Assembly: GCF_024810105.1 (NCBI RefSeq)
Contig: NZ_JANUDX010000002.1
Span: 1 to 64,000, forward strand
Length of the DNA: 64,000 bases
Origin: Stenotrophomonas sp. BIGb0135
GTDB lineage: Bacteria > Pseudomonadota > Gammaproteobacteria > Xanthomonadales > Xanthomonadaceae
Direction: 5' to 3'
The notes beneath the pieces are model-generated. The model saw nothing but the letters and a program-made list of their open reading frames with translations. It had not been told where the DNA came from and ran no database searches. Below are positions 8,418 through 11,428 of this stretch, piece after piece; the first letter of the stretch is position 1, and each line of letters begins with the position of its first letter. Both the position numbers and the translations under genes were made by a program.

Positions 8418-8492
8418 GGGCGGTTAGCTCAGCGGTAGAGCATTGCCTTCACACGGCAAGGGTCGCAGGTTCGAACCCTGCACCGCCCACCA
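8418..8492 (+). tRNA. tRNA-Val (anticodon CAC)
   Basis: A full cloverleaf of 75 nt including an encoded CCA. The acceptor stem is GGGCGGT / ACCGCCC, the D arm GCTC / GAGC, the anticodon stem TTGCC / GGCAA with loop TTCACAC (anticodon CAC at 8450-8452, reading GUG), and the T arm GCAGG / CCTGC around TTCGAAC. It has its own strong promoter. Its 3' half is repeated at 11184-11230 and serves as the insertion site of the small island that follows. Confidence 0.95.
8446..8492 (+). repeat. attachment repeat, left (tRNA 3' half)
   Basis: The 47 bases from the anticodon stem to the CCA end are identical to 11184-11230. This is the classical outcome of site-specific integration into the 3' end of a tRNA gene, where the incoming element restores the tRNA and leaves a fragment at its far end. 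Confidence 0.9.
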
Positions 8493-8558: not shown

Positions 8559-8665
8559 TCGCGCTGGGACGAGGTTGTGAGGGGTGGCTTCGAGATGAGT
8601 CGCAAGTTCTCAGATCTGTATCCGCTTCGTTGCAAGAGCTGAGCAAGTGACCATGAGTAGAGACG

Positions 8666-8690
8666 AAGCCGGCCGGATGGTCGGCTTTTT
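8666..8690 (+). terminator. intrinsic terminator inside island
   Basis: Stem AAGCCGGCC / GGTCGGCTT (one G-T pair) with loop GGAT, followed by a run of T. Its arms are identical to those of the terminator just after the right attachment repeat (11246-11271); only the four loop bases differ. It probably stops tRNA transcription before it enters the island operon. Confidence 0.8.
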
Positions 8691-8723
8691 CGTACGTGAG
8701 CGTTTGGTTCGCTGCCTACATGG

Positions 8724-9788
8724 ATGGCTAGGATGAAGCGGTTACGCGATCAGCAGGCGTTTCTAAGATGGATGCACAATCGGGAACGCGCTCTTCTGCG
8801 ACGGGCGGTTCGAACTCGTCGAGAAGCCTTGCGGGAGGCCGCAAAGACACTGCCTCTTCCTGGCGAGTGTCTGGTCGAGATGCCGAAGTACGTCGGTCTC
8901 GAAGGTGATTTCCATGACCAGCTTGTCGATGTGCTTCAGAAAATTCGTCGAGGAGTGGCGAACGGTCAGCCGCTGTGCCTTTGCTTCCGCTCGACCGAGT
9001 TGATGATAGCCAGCGGGACGCTCTTGCTGTTTTCTGAGATCAATCGACTCAAGGCCATTAACCCGGCGCTGATCCTCCGCTGCGTTCCGCCAAAGAGTGA
9101 GCGAGTCGCGCAAGTGCTGCAGCACTTGGGCATGTTCCAACTGATGAACTACCAGAGCTCTGTCATTCCGTCTCGTGCCGACGTAGTGAGCTGGCGCAAG
9201 GCCTCTTCATCTAAGGTTGATGGGGAGAGGGTAGGATCCGTCATCGGTGCGTATGAATCGCTTCAGGGACAGCGGGCCAAACAGCTCTTCCGAGGGGCGA
9301 CAGAGGCAATGATGAATGCGATGAACCACGCCTATGAGGAGCCGAGAAACGACGGGCTCGCTGCACCTCCAGAGGAGCGGTGGTGGTTGTTTTGCCGAGA
9401 GCGCGAAGAGTCATTCCTCGTCGGCGTCTGCGACCTGGGCATCGGAATTCCACGGTCACTTCCTGCAAAGTACCCAGACGAGATCCTGAGAGCCGCGGTC
9501 AAAAGTTTGACCGGCGGCGCGCTACGTGATGACGCGAGGCTGATTCAAGCTGCAACGGAGATCGAGCGAACCAGGACTGATCGCCGAGGTCGAGGGAAGG
9601 GGTTGGCCGACCTGAAAAGAATCGTGGATGAGGTTCCCGGAGGAGTCCTTTCCATATTTAGTAACCGTGGTCTGCTGAGTTATGACGGTACGTCGACGAA
9701 GCGCCAGAATTTCGGTCGTTCCATCAAAGGAACGGTCGTCCTTTGGGAGATTCCCTTGAGTGCGCAAAATGTCCATGTCGAAAATTAA
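8724..9788 (+). CDS. GHKL-type ATPase with N-terminal STAS-like domain
   Basis: A 354-residue soluble protein. Residues 1-45 are basic and helical. Residues about 60-145 resemble a STAS-like fold (PLCLCFRSTELMIASGTLLLFSEINRL). The C-terminal half is a GHKL ATP-binding domain: N box GATEAMMNAMNHAYEE (191-206), G1 box DLGIGIP (237-243), G2 box GRGKGL (289-294) and a closing GTVV (336-339). There is no phospho-accepting H-box or membrane segment, so it is not a sensor kinase; anti-sigma-type kinases such as SpoIIAB or RsbW are the nearest analogy. It is followed by an overlapping DUF4325 gene and a membrane protein. Start could instead be the ATG at 8733. The biological role is not known to me; a partner-switch regulator is inferred. 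Confidence 0.8.
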   Translation: MARMKRLRDQQAFLRWMHNRERALLRRAVRTRREALREAAKTLPLPGECLVEMPKYVGLEGDFHDQLVDVLQKIRRGVANGQPLCLCFRSTELMIASGTLLLFSEINRLKAINPALILRCVPPKSERVAQVLQHLGMFQLMNYQSSVIPSRADVVSWRKASSSKVDGERVGSVIGAYESLQGQRAKQLFRGATEAMMNAMNHAYEEPRNDGLAAPPEERWWLFCREREESFLVGVCDLGIGIPRSLPAKYPDEILRAAVKSLTGGALRDDARLIQAATEIERTRTDRRGRGKGLADLKRIVDEVPGGVLSIFSNRGLLSYDGTSTKRQNFGRSIKGTVVLWEIPLSAQNVHVEN

Positions 9789-10095
9789 TGTGGGCCGAGA
9801 TTTCAGCCGCTACCCGGTCGGAAGATATCGAGCGGACGGCGAGAGCAATGGCGAAGCATTCCGAGAGGATCTGCTGCGCCCAGCTCTGGTAAAGGGTTCT
9901 GTTCAGATTTTCATGGATGATGCGTTCGGTTACGGGTCGTCGTTTCTTGAAGAGGTATTTGGCGGCCTAATTCGTACCGGATACACCCTCGCATCGCTTG
10001 AGCCAATCTTGAAGATTGAGAGTAGCGACGACTCTTTGTTGGAAGAGATCAAAGGCTACATGCGCGATGCAGAGGCGCTGAAGAGGAAGGCCTGA
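9769..10095 (+). CDS. STAS-like protein, DUF4325 family
   Basis: A 108-residue protein with the DUF4325 pattern: KINVGRDFSRYPVGRY, DGESNGEAFREDLLRPAL (residues about 22-39), then the hydrophobic strand SVQIFMDDAF and GSSFLEEVFGGL. The family is described as STAS-like, a fold used by proteins that dock to GHKL kinases in partner switching. The gene overlaps the ATPase gene by 20 nt and the next gene by 1 nt, so the three are a tight translational unit. ATG at 9769 or 9775 and GTG at 9760 are all possible starts. Family assignment rests on motif recall; function is inferred from context. Confidence 0.78.
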   Translation: MSMSKINVGRDFSRYPVGRYRADGESNGEAFREDLLRPALVKGSVQIFMDDAFGYGSSFLEEVFGGLIRTGYTLASLEPILKIESSDDSLLEEIKGYMRDAEALKRKA

Positions 10096-10613
10096 TGAGC
10101 CAGGAGGCAAGTTGCGTGGCAGCTTTTTGGTCCTTCATTGTTCAAGTTCTCACTTGGGGACTTGTCATCCTAGGCTGGCTGGTCGTGGTCGACCAGACGG
10201 AGTACCGGGAGTTGACGAAAATTGCGCTTGCCAGAATCGCAGCTCTAAGGGACCAGTTGCGCGCTATCGAAGAGCTGGCCATTAAGTTTCATACCAGCCC
10301 TTATGACCAGGCAAGCTCGCGTGAACTCACTCGAAAGATTAAGAAGTTCAGTGAGGAAATAATGGATCTTAAGGCTGCTGGGCACGTGTCACATGCGTCG
10401 GCGAGCTGCAGTATTGATGTTCGTAAGGCGGTCACGCTGCAGAACTTTGATCAATCCTCGCACCAGGTTCTGGATCGGCGCGCTGACTTGGTTACAGACA
10501 TTGAGGCGGTGGCTGACAGCACGGACACGCAGCTGATGAGGTGTGCTTCCAGCGCGAGCGCGAAGCCGCGTAAACTGCGAATGACCTTCCAGGGTCTGTG
10601 GAAACGAATCTAA
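10095..10613 (+). CDS. membrane-anchored coiled-coil protein of island operon
   Basis: A 172-residue protein I do not recognise. It has one strong membrane helix at about residues 9-28 (AFWSFIVQVLTWGLVILGWL), then a charged, probably coiled-coil region to about residue 100, and a basic C-terminus. The start overlaps the DUF4325 stop (TGATG). Base composition is low-GC like the other island genes. As the only membrane component of the operon before the broken fourth gene, it is a natural candidate for the output or target of the ATPase/STAS pair; this is inference. Confidence 0.7.
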   Translation: MSQEASCVAAFWSFIVQVLTWGLVILGWLVVVDQTEYRELTKIALARIAALRDQLRAIEELAIKFHTSPYDQASSRELTRKIKKFSEEIMDLKAAGHVSHASASCSIDVRKAVTLQNFDQSSHQVLDRRADLVTDIEAVADSTDTQLMRCASSASAKPRKLRMTFQGLWKRI

Positions 10614-10630
10614 GTTGCGAGGAGAGGGCT

Positions 10631-11044
10631 GTGACGCGCGATGAACTTGAAGCTGAGTTAAACGACGTTGAGTCAAAGTTGGCCACTTCTTCTTCCAGGA
10701 TGTAGCAGCTTCTGCAGAGCTTCGCAACCTCAGTTGCACCTGATGTGTCCGCTTGGATCGAAGATGCTGCTGTGCGCGGCGTCGAAGAAAACCACGAAGC
10801 GACCATTGCTGGAGGGGTAAAGTTTGTTCGCGCAGTGAGGGCAGACGTAACGGACCTTACGCGAGATGCAGTTTCCATTTCGATAGCTGCGCTCGGAGCT
10901 CCGGAGCAATGGCCGCACAATAGAGAACTCACCGCATCGGATTTCTATTCGAAGAGGAACGATTTCTTCGGGGCAGTGCATCGACGTGCTGTATCTTCAT
11001 TGGGTAAAGTTCTCTCTTGGCCGATTCCACGACGCTGGGATTGA
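10631..11044 (+). pseudogene. fourth island gene interrupted by an amber codon
   Basis: A GTG at 10631 has a strong ribosome site (GGAGAGG, 10621-10627) and opens a frame that reads 24 codons to TAG at 10703-10705. It then continues in the same frame without any other stop to TGA at 11042, 137 positions in all. The part before TAG (DELEAELNDVESKL) and after it (QLLQSFATSVAPDVSAW) reads as one continuous helical protein. So this looks like one gene broken by a single base change, for example from CAG, rather than two genes. I do not recognise the product. A sequencing error or amber readthrough are the alternatives. It lies 17 nt after the membrane gene and ends the operon. Confidence 0.65.
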
Positions 11045-11069
11045 GGCGCTTGGATTGCTTCATGGGCTC

Positions 11070-11089
11070 GTAACTGCCCGGTAACAGCA
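11070..11089 (+). repeat. paired 9-bp repeats, right end of island
   Basis: GTAACTGCC (11070-11078) and GTAACAGCA (11081-11089) match the left-end pair GTAACTGCA with one mismatch each. They keep the same orientation and the same 11-bp period, and lie 95 bp inside the right attachment repeat. Confidence 0.55.
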
Positions 11090-11183
11090 AAACCCAGTGT
11101 GCGGCCAAATTCAGCGGGACGCAATGACACTGTAAAACAAGGGCTTCAAGACGACTGCGTTGCGCCGCAAGGACATTTGCCAT

Positions 11184-11230
11184 CCTTCACACGGCAAGGG
11201 TCGCAGGTTCGAACCCTGCACCGCCCACCA
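11184..11230 (+). repeat. attachment repeat, right (tRNA fragment)
   Basis: 47 bases identical to the 3' half of the tRNA-Val at 8446-8492, including the T arm and CCA. It lacks the acceptor 5' strand, D arm and promoter, so it is not a working tRNA. It marks the right boundary of the island. Confidence 0.9.
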
Positions 11231-11245
11231 CACTGCAACATGAAG

Positions 11246-11271
11246 AAGCCGGCCCTTGGGTCGGCTTTTTT
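11246..11271 (+). terminator. intrinsic terminator after right attachment repeat
   Basis: Stem AAGCCGGCC / GGTCGGCTT followed by a T-run, 15 nt after the tRNA fragment. Before the island arrived this would have been the terminator of tRNA-Val. From 11272 to 11428 I see no gene. Confidence 0.8.
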
Positions 11272-11428
11272 GTTGCCTGCCGTTCCCCGAGCGGGTTCGG
11301 GTGCGCTGCCCGGTGCGTACGGCTCGCGCGCCCGCGGCCACGCCGGCTTGTTGCCGCCTTCCTGCCCGCATTAACATCGATGCGGACGGGCCGCTCGCGC
11401 CCTTGGCTGACAGGATGTTGGGCATCGC

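Follow-up and report, generated by a model that had tools for sequence, protein, structure and literature searches.

In the portions of Chambers et al. (EMBO J, June 2026, PMC13373217) drawn on here, two kinase-STAS systems of bacterial immunity are described. VapKSC combines a STAS-GHKL kinase, a STAS antitoxin that is phosphorylated at Ser48, and a third gene encoding the toxin, a PIN protein. The kinase is activated by single-stranded DNA, the system protects against phage, a phospho-mimic of VapS Ser48 abolishes inhibition of VapC, and 103 of 289 loci have an immune gene no more than 10 kb away. CapK is likewise a STAS-GHKL kinase, with CapS as its STAS substrate; the pair is found in immune loci, including beside restriction-modification (RM) systems. 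CapS is a STAS-winged helix-turn-helix (wHTH) protein that represses transcription of a separate downstream immune operon. Here, we analyze a related three-gene cassette carried by a small tRNA island of Stenotrophomonas sp. BIGb0135. The window, a stretch of 64,000 nucleotides (nt), comprises positions 1 to 64,000 of contig NZ_JANUDX010000002.1 (GCF_024810105.1). We judge it somewhat more probable than the sum of other explanations that the cassette is a toxin-antitoxin switch directed against phage: a predicted serine kinase would act on a STAS substrate that would hold a predicted single-pass membrane effector inactive. The genes, and the codon on which this proposal turns, are as follows.

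8724..9788, + strand: gene 1 (K), predicted kinase, 354 amino acids (Pfam; AF2 model, pLDDT 86.6; VIA-align; hhalign to VapK-like proteins, E 1.8e-13)
9760..10095, + strand: gene 2 (S), VapS-like STAS protein, 111 amino acids, GTG start (PF14213 above cut-off; hhalign to VapS-like proteins)
9937..9939, + strand: Ser60 codon of gene 2, numbered from the GTG at 9760 and aligned to the phosphorylated Ser48 of VapS
10095..10613, + strand: gene 3 (M), predicted single-pass membrane protein with its N terminus outside (hydropathy; AF2 model, pLDDT 86.7)

Recurrence of the cassette

The layout proposed in a first-pass annotation of this DNA proved accurate. Gene 2, read here from the GTG at 9760, overlaps gene 1 by 20 nt if the alternative ATG at 9769 is taken, the ATG of gene 3 sits within the stop codon of gene 2, and the GTG of a fourth, broken gene begins 17 nt past gene 3. 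The same annotation suggested a partner-switch operon, an idea that is well supported by the fold predicted for gene 1, by the co-occurrence and co-divergence reported below, and by the grouping of gene 2 with the phospho-switched VapS.

Genomes were scanned once with a profile of gene 1, for which the G1 motif CDLGIGIP served as the seed, and viral sequences were likewise scanned once. The genome scan returned 28 loci, from Lysobacter, Rhodanobacter, Pseudomonas, Nitrosomonas, Gallionella, Sphingomonas, Janthinobacterium, Endozoicomonas, and others. The viral scan returned 23 loci, which form 14 groups after near-duplicates were merged by eye. Gene 2 was present at every locus found by gene 1 (28/28 genome and 23/23 viral), and gene 3 at 27/28 and 22/23, with both gaps at contig ends (L026 and L036; L denotes loci and G genomes). 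The hidden Markov models (HMMs) of genes 2 and 3 were built from these same loci, and the counts show homology among positionally chosen open reading frames (ORFs). Rare co-occurrence, which would have spoken against a system, was not seen.

Out of sample, gene 1 was found in 9 of 349 genomes of the phylum, in all nine cases beside PF14213 or, in G273, sharing one frame with it. Gene 3 was present at five of these nine loci, and elsewhere in the phylum set it gave just two weak matches within long frames. Within the family, 14 of 297 genomes had a gene 1 match, seven strong (E < 1e-30) and seven weak. Besides the genome of the window, genes 2 and 3 accompanied gene 1 in 5/6 strong family genomes, three of them new, since G493 and G692 represent the same loci as L003 and L004. 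In the remaining genome (L138), a 474-amino-acid frame that resembles a transposase by eye lies after gene 1, and neither gene 2 nor gene 3 was found. Only 2 of 91 genomes of the genus contained gene 1, the second at 27% identity. Viewed from gene 2, the unit is looser: in plasmid records with a gene 2 match, gene 1 occurred in 7/9 and gene 3 in 5/9, a tally that covers 9 of the 13 such records.

Pairwise distances of the three proteins correlated across 42 loci (Mantel r of 0.720, 0.814, and 0.677), with none of 2,000 permutations reaching the observed value. The 42 loci were those kept after dropping near-duplicate, cut, and broken loci, as well as those without all three HMM matches below 1e-4. 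By these sequence comparisons, the three genes recur and diverge together as a unit. In the gene chains of the cassette loci, no conserved fourth gene was seen behind gene 3.

Some copies are damaged. Among the near-identical viral copies L047 to L051, gene 3 is split in two frames in L048 and L050, with genes 1 and 2 open. On an Acinetobacter plasmid (L097), the cassette is interrupted by ISAba14 inside gene 1, and the cassette of L138 is broken off after gene 1 by the transposase-like frame mentioned above.

Predicted kinase and STAS partner

In its model, gene 1 comprises an N-terminal helix, a STAS-like domain at approximately residues 49 to 140, and an RsbW/SpoIIAB-type GHKL kinase domain at approximately residues 152 to 345. 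Pfam matches to HATPase_c_2 (E 9e-4) and HATPase_c (E 1.5e-3) were both below their cut-offs. The first-pass description of a GHKL ATPase lacking an H-box was right in that no H-box/DHp domain ahead of the ATPase was matched by Pfam at E ≤ 1, but it missed the N-terminal helix and the STAS-like domain, which occupies this place in the model. A fragment of a sensor kinase, considered as another identity for gene 1, was ruled out by this STAS-like domain and the RsbW-type fold.

The GHKL model was closest to the anti-sigma serine kinases SpoIIAB and RsbW (VIA-align). Against VapK-like proteins, hhalign gave a probability of 98 and an E value of 1.8e-13 over 237 columns. These comparators (L063, L064, and L066) were picked by their VapS-like or PIN neighbors and stand in for the published VapK sequence. 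Gene 1 is thus, at the level of sequence, homologous to VapK-like STAS-GHKL kinases, and by analogy it is a predicted serine kinase. Its STAS-like part aligned weakly with SpoIIAA (hhalign E 0.02, probability 2.4) and, in the protein of the window, has Ala at the position of SpoIIAA Ser58, so it probably does not serve as a phospho-acceptor. Of 38 gene 1 proteins, 2 and 14 have an aromatic residue at the positions aligned to W42-F43 of the VapK-like protein L063; the protein of the window has one at neither. Sensing of single-stranded DNA is not claimed for gene 1, because the published residue that stacks on it could not be placed. The gene 1 sequence of the window alone matched no viral contig; the gene 1 profile later did.

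Gene 2 was correctly recognized as DUF4325 by the first-pass annotation: PF14213 matches it at 27.4 bits against a curated cut-off of 23. It was the only Pfam family above cut-off, Apo-CIII remaining sub-threshold. Alignment with VapS-like proteins gave an hhalign E value of 1.9e-5 and a probability of 77.5. Two PF14213 members, L063 and L064, match PDB 9z7o_A, Escherichia VapS, and by this match VapS belongs with DUF4325. A PIN protein follows L066 (above cut-off) and L064 (below cut-off), and no such frame was seen behind L063. Direct kinship between DUF4325 and SpoIIAA was not found by hhalign, and VapS serves as the bridge. By profile alignment, genes 1 and 2 of the cassette are homologous to the VapK-like/VapS-like pair.

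The column of Ser60, which corresponds to VapS Ser48, holds Ser in 40/40 cassette sequences and Ser or Thr in 3/3 VapS-like sequences. Elsewhere, Ser occurs in 10 of 23 other PF14213 sequences, about six of which are also cassettes. The position of Ser48 in the printed VapS chain was obtained by counting residues under the assumption of an 18-residue tag.

The pairing of a STAS-GHKL kinase with a STAS substrate is also that of CapK and CapS (PMC13373217), which raises the question of whether gene 2 represses an operon and gene 1 lifts this repression upon DNA damage. We consider such a transcription switch very improbable. CapS, as described in the parts of that paper used here, has a C-terminal wHTH domain, whereas no such DNA-binding domain was found by Pfam in the 111 residues of gene 2, for which DUF4325 is the only assignment above cut-off. 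Furthermore, gene 3 overlaps gene 2, leaving no room for an intergenic promoter between them.

The first-pass annotation proposed that neighborhoods of DUF4325 be searched for a GHKL gene. In the phylum set, PF14213 occurs at 29 places in 27 of 349 genomes. The gene 1 profile matched a frame at the same locus in 15 of these, Pfam detected HATPase at three more (L058 above cut-off, L061 and L063 below), and another seven were GHKL-like by eye only. At the remaining four places (L057, L079, L081, and L084), no GHKL-like frame was seen. ATPase and DUF4325 are fused in L061, L068, and L070 according to Pfam, the ATPase being above cut-off in L070 only. HTH-like or STAS-like parts ahead of the fused proteins were recognized by eye or below cut-off, and no membrane-protein gene was seen behind the fused forms. 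These fused GHKL-DUF4325 proteins represent a wider kinase-STAS family.

Several further arrangements were encountered. Fusions were also noted by eye in L059, L067, L069, L072, L076, L077, and L085. In L058 (689-2746), a pair of GHKL and DUF4325 genes adjoins a PRiA4_ORF3-like protein, perhaps another effector type for a kinase-STAS switch. A Pseudomonas silesiensis plasmid record (L103, 7998-8318) carries a cassette-type gene 2 alone, with the motif GYGSSFLEE and no gene 1 or gene 3 nearby; it is possibly a solitary antitoxin or a relic.

Predicted membrane protein and proposed switch

PADLOC gave no family for gene 3, and neither Pfam nor NCBIfam had a match above cut-off. Its AF2 model (pLDDT 86.7) consists of a helix from residue 3 to 67, the first part of which is hydrophobic, and four further helices. 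Positive charges after the hydrophobic stretch outnumbered those before it in 38/38 gene 3 proteins, so by the charge rule the helical bundle should be cytosolic, within the reach of gene 2. The best-kept residues are G27, W28, and T114 (at least 90%). No PIN domain was matched in gene 3 by Pfam at E ≤ 1, and the protein is predicted to be all-helical with one hydrophobic N-terminal helix. Sequence comparison with the PDB gave 10 weak matches (E 0.057-0.99), and no Foldseek match at E ≤ 0.001 was found in PDB or BFVD. A pore-like reading through Csx28 (8gi1) was considered and set aside as too weak for use (rank 11, TM 0.32-0.36).

On the proposed switch, gene 2 would hold gene 3 inactive. Infection would activate the gene 1 kinase, which, as in VapKSC, would phosphorylate gene 2 at Ser60, upon which the complex of genes 2 and 3 products would fall apart. 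Judging from its anatomy, the released gene 3 protein, with its single N-terminal helix as an anchor and a cytosolic bundle, may assemble in or disturb the inner membrane, and this action would halt the infected cell. We infer four parts of this scheme: the kinase activity, the phosphorylation of Ser60, the holding of gene 3 by gene 2, and the action of gene 3 on the membrane.

The membrane protein could instead stand at the other end of the pathway, as a sensor of an envelope event that signals to the kinase-STAS pair, which would then act on some target of the host or phage encoded at another site. Membrane-bound partners often provide the input to partner switches, and many receptor sensor domains, as well as NarQ fragments that combine sensor and membrane parts, appear in the VIA-align rows of gene 3. 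However, the bundle is predicted to be cytosolic rather than periplasmic in all 38 proteins, no conserved fourth gene was seen behind gene 3, and the third gene of VapKSC is a toxin (PMC13373217, as far as drawn on here). We regard a sensor role as unlikely, if the foremost of the alternatives to an effector role.

Genomic neighborhoods

The neighborhoods scanned are hand-chosen examples without random control loci, and no enrichment figure is attached to them. A CI/S24-type repressor lay upstream on the same strand in five of the seven viral groups scanned (of 14 groups). It adjoins the cassette in L037 and is 91 nt away in L042 and approximately 450 nt away in L045, with only an opposite-strand frame between. 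It is further off in L036 (one frame between) and L040 (two frames between), and it was not found upstream in L034 and L044. Marinobacter phage AS1 (L054) and a Pasteurella prophage-like record (L102) likewise have such a repressor immediately upstream of the cassette. A published table of Francisella phage KIRK lists, in the same order, a CI repressor, an unnamed protein, a DUF4325 protein, and a transmembrane protein (PMC7924643, the table being the part used).

An integrase-type gene adjoins the cassette in L031, L032, L033, and L052, below the Pfam cut-off in two of the four. Two cassettes are located in type I RM operons: L006, between HsdS and an AbiL-like pair, and L013, with HsdS and a Schlafen AlbA_2 gene before it and HsdR 2 kb behind. 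Plasmids of Vibrio alfacsensis and Acinetobacter also bear the cassette (L055 and L056 are among the plasmid loci). In L026, L027, L138, and L142, gene 1 starts 29 to approximately 460 nt behind a tRNA gene, and no second tRNA-end repeat was found beside these four loci within the DNA stretches examined. The genes scanned beside L010 and L029 were ordinary.

The recurring place behind a repressor (L036, L037, L040, L042, L045, L054, and L102, as well as phage KIRK) would suit a regulator of lysogeny, which would adjust the repression or induction of the prophage without taking part in defense. Against this, the three-gene unit also resides on plasmids, in RM operons, and on the integrase-less island of the window, and we hold this explanation to be improbable. 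The first-pass guess of a defense function fits these hand-chosen neighborhoods.

In L044 (8013-9959), the cassette is located in a tail operon, where it follows the gene for a tape-measure protein; this location is unusual for a gene expressed in lysogens.

The tRNA-Val island

The first-pass annotation placed the genes on a small tRNA island, which was corroborated by its exact repeats, low G+C content, and an empty site in relatives. The element is approximately 2.7 kb long, is inserted at a tRNA-Val gene, and has the three-gene set as cargo in addition to the broken fourth gene. Its features are as follows.

8418..8492, + strand: tRNA-Val (cac), the integration target (ARAGORN); the left repeat is formed by its final 47 nt (8446-8492)
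8662..8693, + strand: hairpin-like stretch, the island's own copy (repeat D2), 81% identical to the host's 11242-11273
10631..11044, + strand: broken fourth gene, with GTG start at 10631, an in-frame TAG at 10703-10705, and an open ORF at 10745-11044
11069..11178, + strand: right island end, which blastn aligns over 110 nt, at 73% identity, with the integrase-proximal end of an 11.4-kb island in the relative G018 (L109)
11184..11230, + strand: right 47-nt direct repeat (repeat D1), a copy of the tRNA-Val 3' end

Both 47-nt direct repeats are exact copies of the tRNA-Val (cac) 3' end. The G+C content of the island is 0.547, whereas 224 overlapping, equally sized windows from outside the island average 0.687, with the lowest at 0.640. 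The hairpin-like stretch sits behind the tRNA, as its counterpart follows the tRNA in the host, and contains a terminator-like match at 8671-8686 (four such matches found, 2.9 expected by chance). In same-genus relatives, the tRNA is contiguous with the right flank: G074, G059, G026, and G054 matched approximately 120 nt of the joined query at 92-95%, many further relatives matched at 81-90%, and others matched the tRNA portion only.

At the identical tRNA-Val site, with the same 47-nt repeats, contig C16 of G018 contains an 11.4-kb island (L109, 489-12039), the integrase of which matches Arm-DNA-bind_3 above and Phage_integrase below cut-off. No integrase gene lies between the two repeats of the window, and none of the L109 type was found in the window's own genome by a search without a positive control. 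Since the island has repeats but no integrase gene, and since its right end is similar to that of the integrase-bearing L109 island at this tRNA, it was probably mobilized in trans by an element of the L109 type. The island DNA had no match among plasmids, and the related cassette L047 had none in Escherichia coli genomes.

The L109 island also encodes an AbiTii protein, the candidate defense ATPase PDC-S49, and a one-helix protein. The tRNA-Val site may be a spot for defense cargo in this genus.

As the first-pass annotation had noted, the fourth gene is broken, by the in-frame TAG, and its open piece yielded no homologue (0/13 candidates at E ≤ 0.01). The remnant is outside the conserved unit and is not required for the kinase-switch reading.

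Comparison with known systems

PADLOC 2.0.0 (2023) returned no family at E ≤ 1 for the four island proteins, and no description of the three-gene set was found among the titles and abstract starts listed. The first-pass label "undescribed" holds in part: June 2026 saw the publication of VapKSC and CapKS, which are closely similar, whereas the membrane-effector version was not met among the literature matches listed, nor were the prophage-repressor position and the link between VapS and DUF4325. A word search of the main text of PMC13373217 returned neither DUF4325 nor "transmembrane".

Whether the cassette is a founding example of a class is, in our view, evenly balanced. In such a class of phage- and island-borne abortive-infection switches, phosphorylation of a DUF4325 antitoxin would free a single-pass membrane killer. 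VapKSC would be the RNase-armed sister, and DUF4325 proteins in general would serve as the switch component in a modular immune superfamily of kinase-STAS systems whose effectors are interchangeable. If true, DUF4325 would turn from a domain of unknown function, mentioned by two papers among those searched, into a recognizable antitoxin module, kinase-STAS switches in bacterial immunity would drive membrane effectors besides RNases, and prophages would possess a counterpart of RexAB controlled by phosphorylation. This makes for a concrete prediction, which involves a single serine, a single kinase, and a single membrane protein.

The resemblance to RexAB of lambda is by position only, namely, the place behind the repressor gene in prophages. 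RexB, the product of the last gene of rexAB, is a membrane protein, as gene 3 is predicted to be, and to our knowledge neither RexA nor RexB has a kinase or STAS domain. With SpoIIAB-SpoIIAA and RsbW-RsbV, the cassette shares the GHKL serine-kinase fold and a STAS partner. However, those switches target a sigma factor, a family for which Pfam gave no match in any of the four island proteins, and the cassette kinase is fused to a STAS-like domain of its own.

The remaining comparisons concern the systems of PMC13373217, in the portions drawn on. CapK and CapS have the kinase-STAS pair in common with the cassette, but CapS has a wHTH domain and a separate target operon, whereas gene 2 lacks this domain and gene 3 is part of the unit. 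VapKSC is closest. Both are three-gene operons with a STAS-GHKL kinase first, a DUF4325-type STAS protein second, and a third gene in the toxin's place, and both have Ser or Thr at the phosphorylation position of the STAS protein and occur in defense neighborhoods. They differ in that the cassette is often found behind prophage repressors and its gene 1 opens with a predicted helix of approximately 40 residues before the STAS-like domain, which the VapK-like protein L063 lacks. Above all, the third gene encodes a predicted single-pass membrane protein in place of the PIN nuclease of VapKSC, and because the PIN toxin is absent, the cassette is not counted as a VapKSC member. In general terms, control of an immune effector by a kinase-STAS pair is already known (PMC13373217); what may be new is the membrane-effector version.
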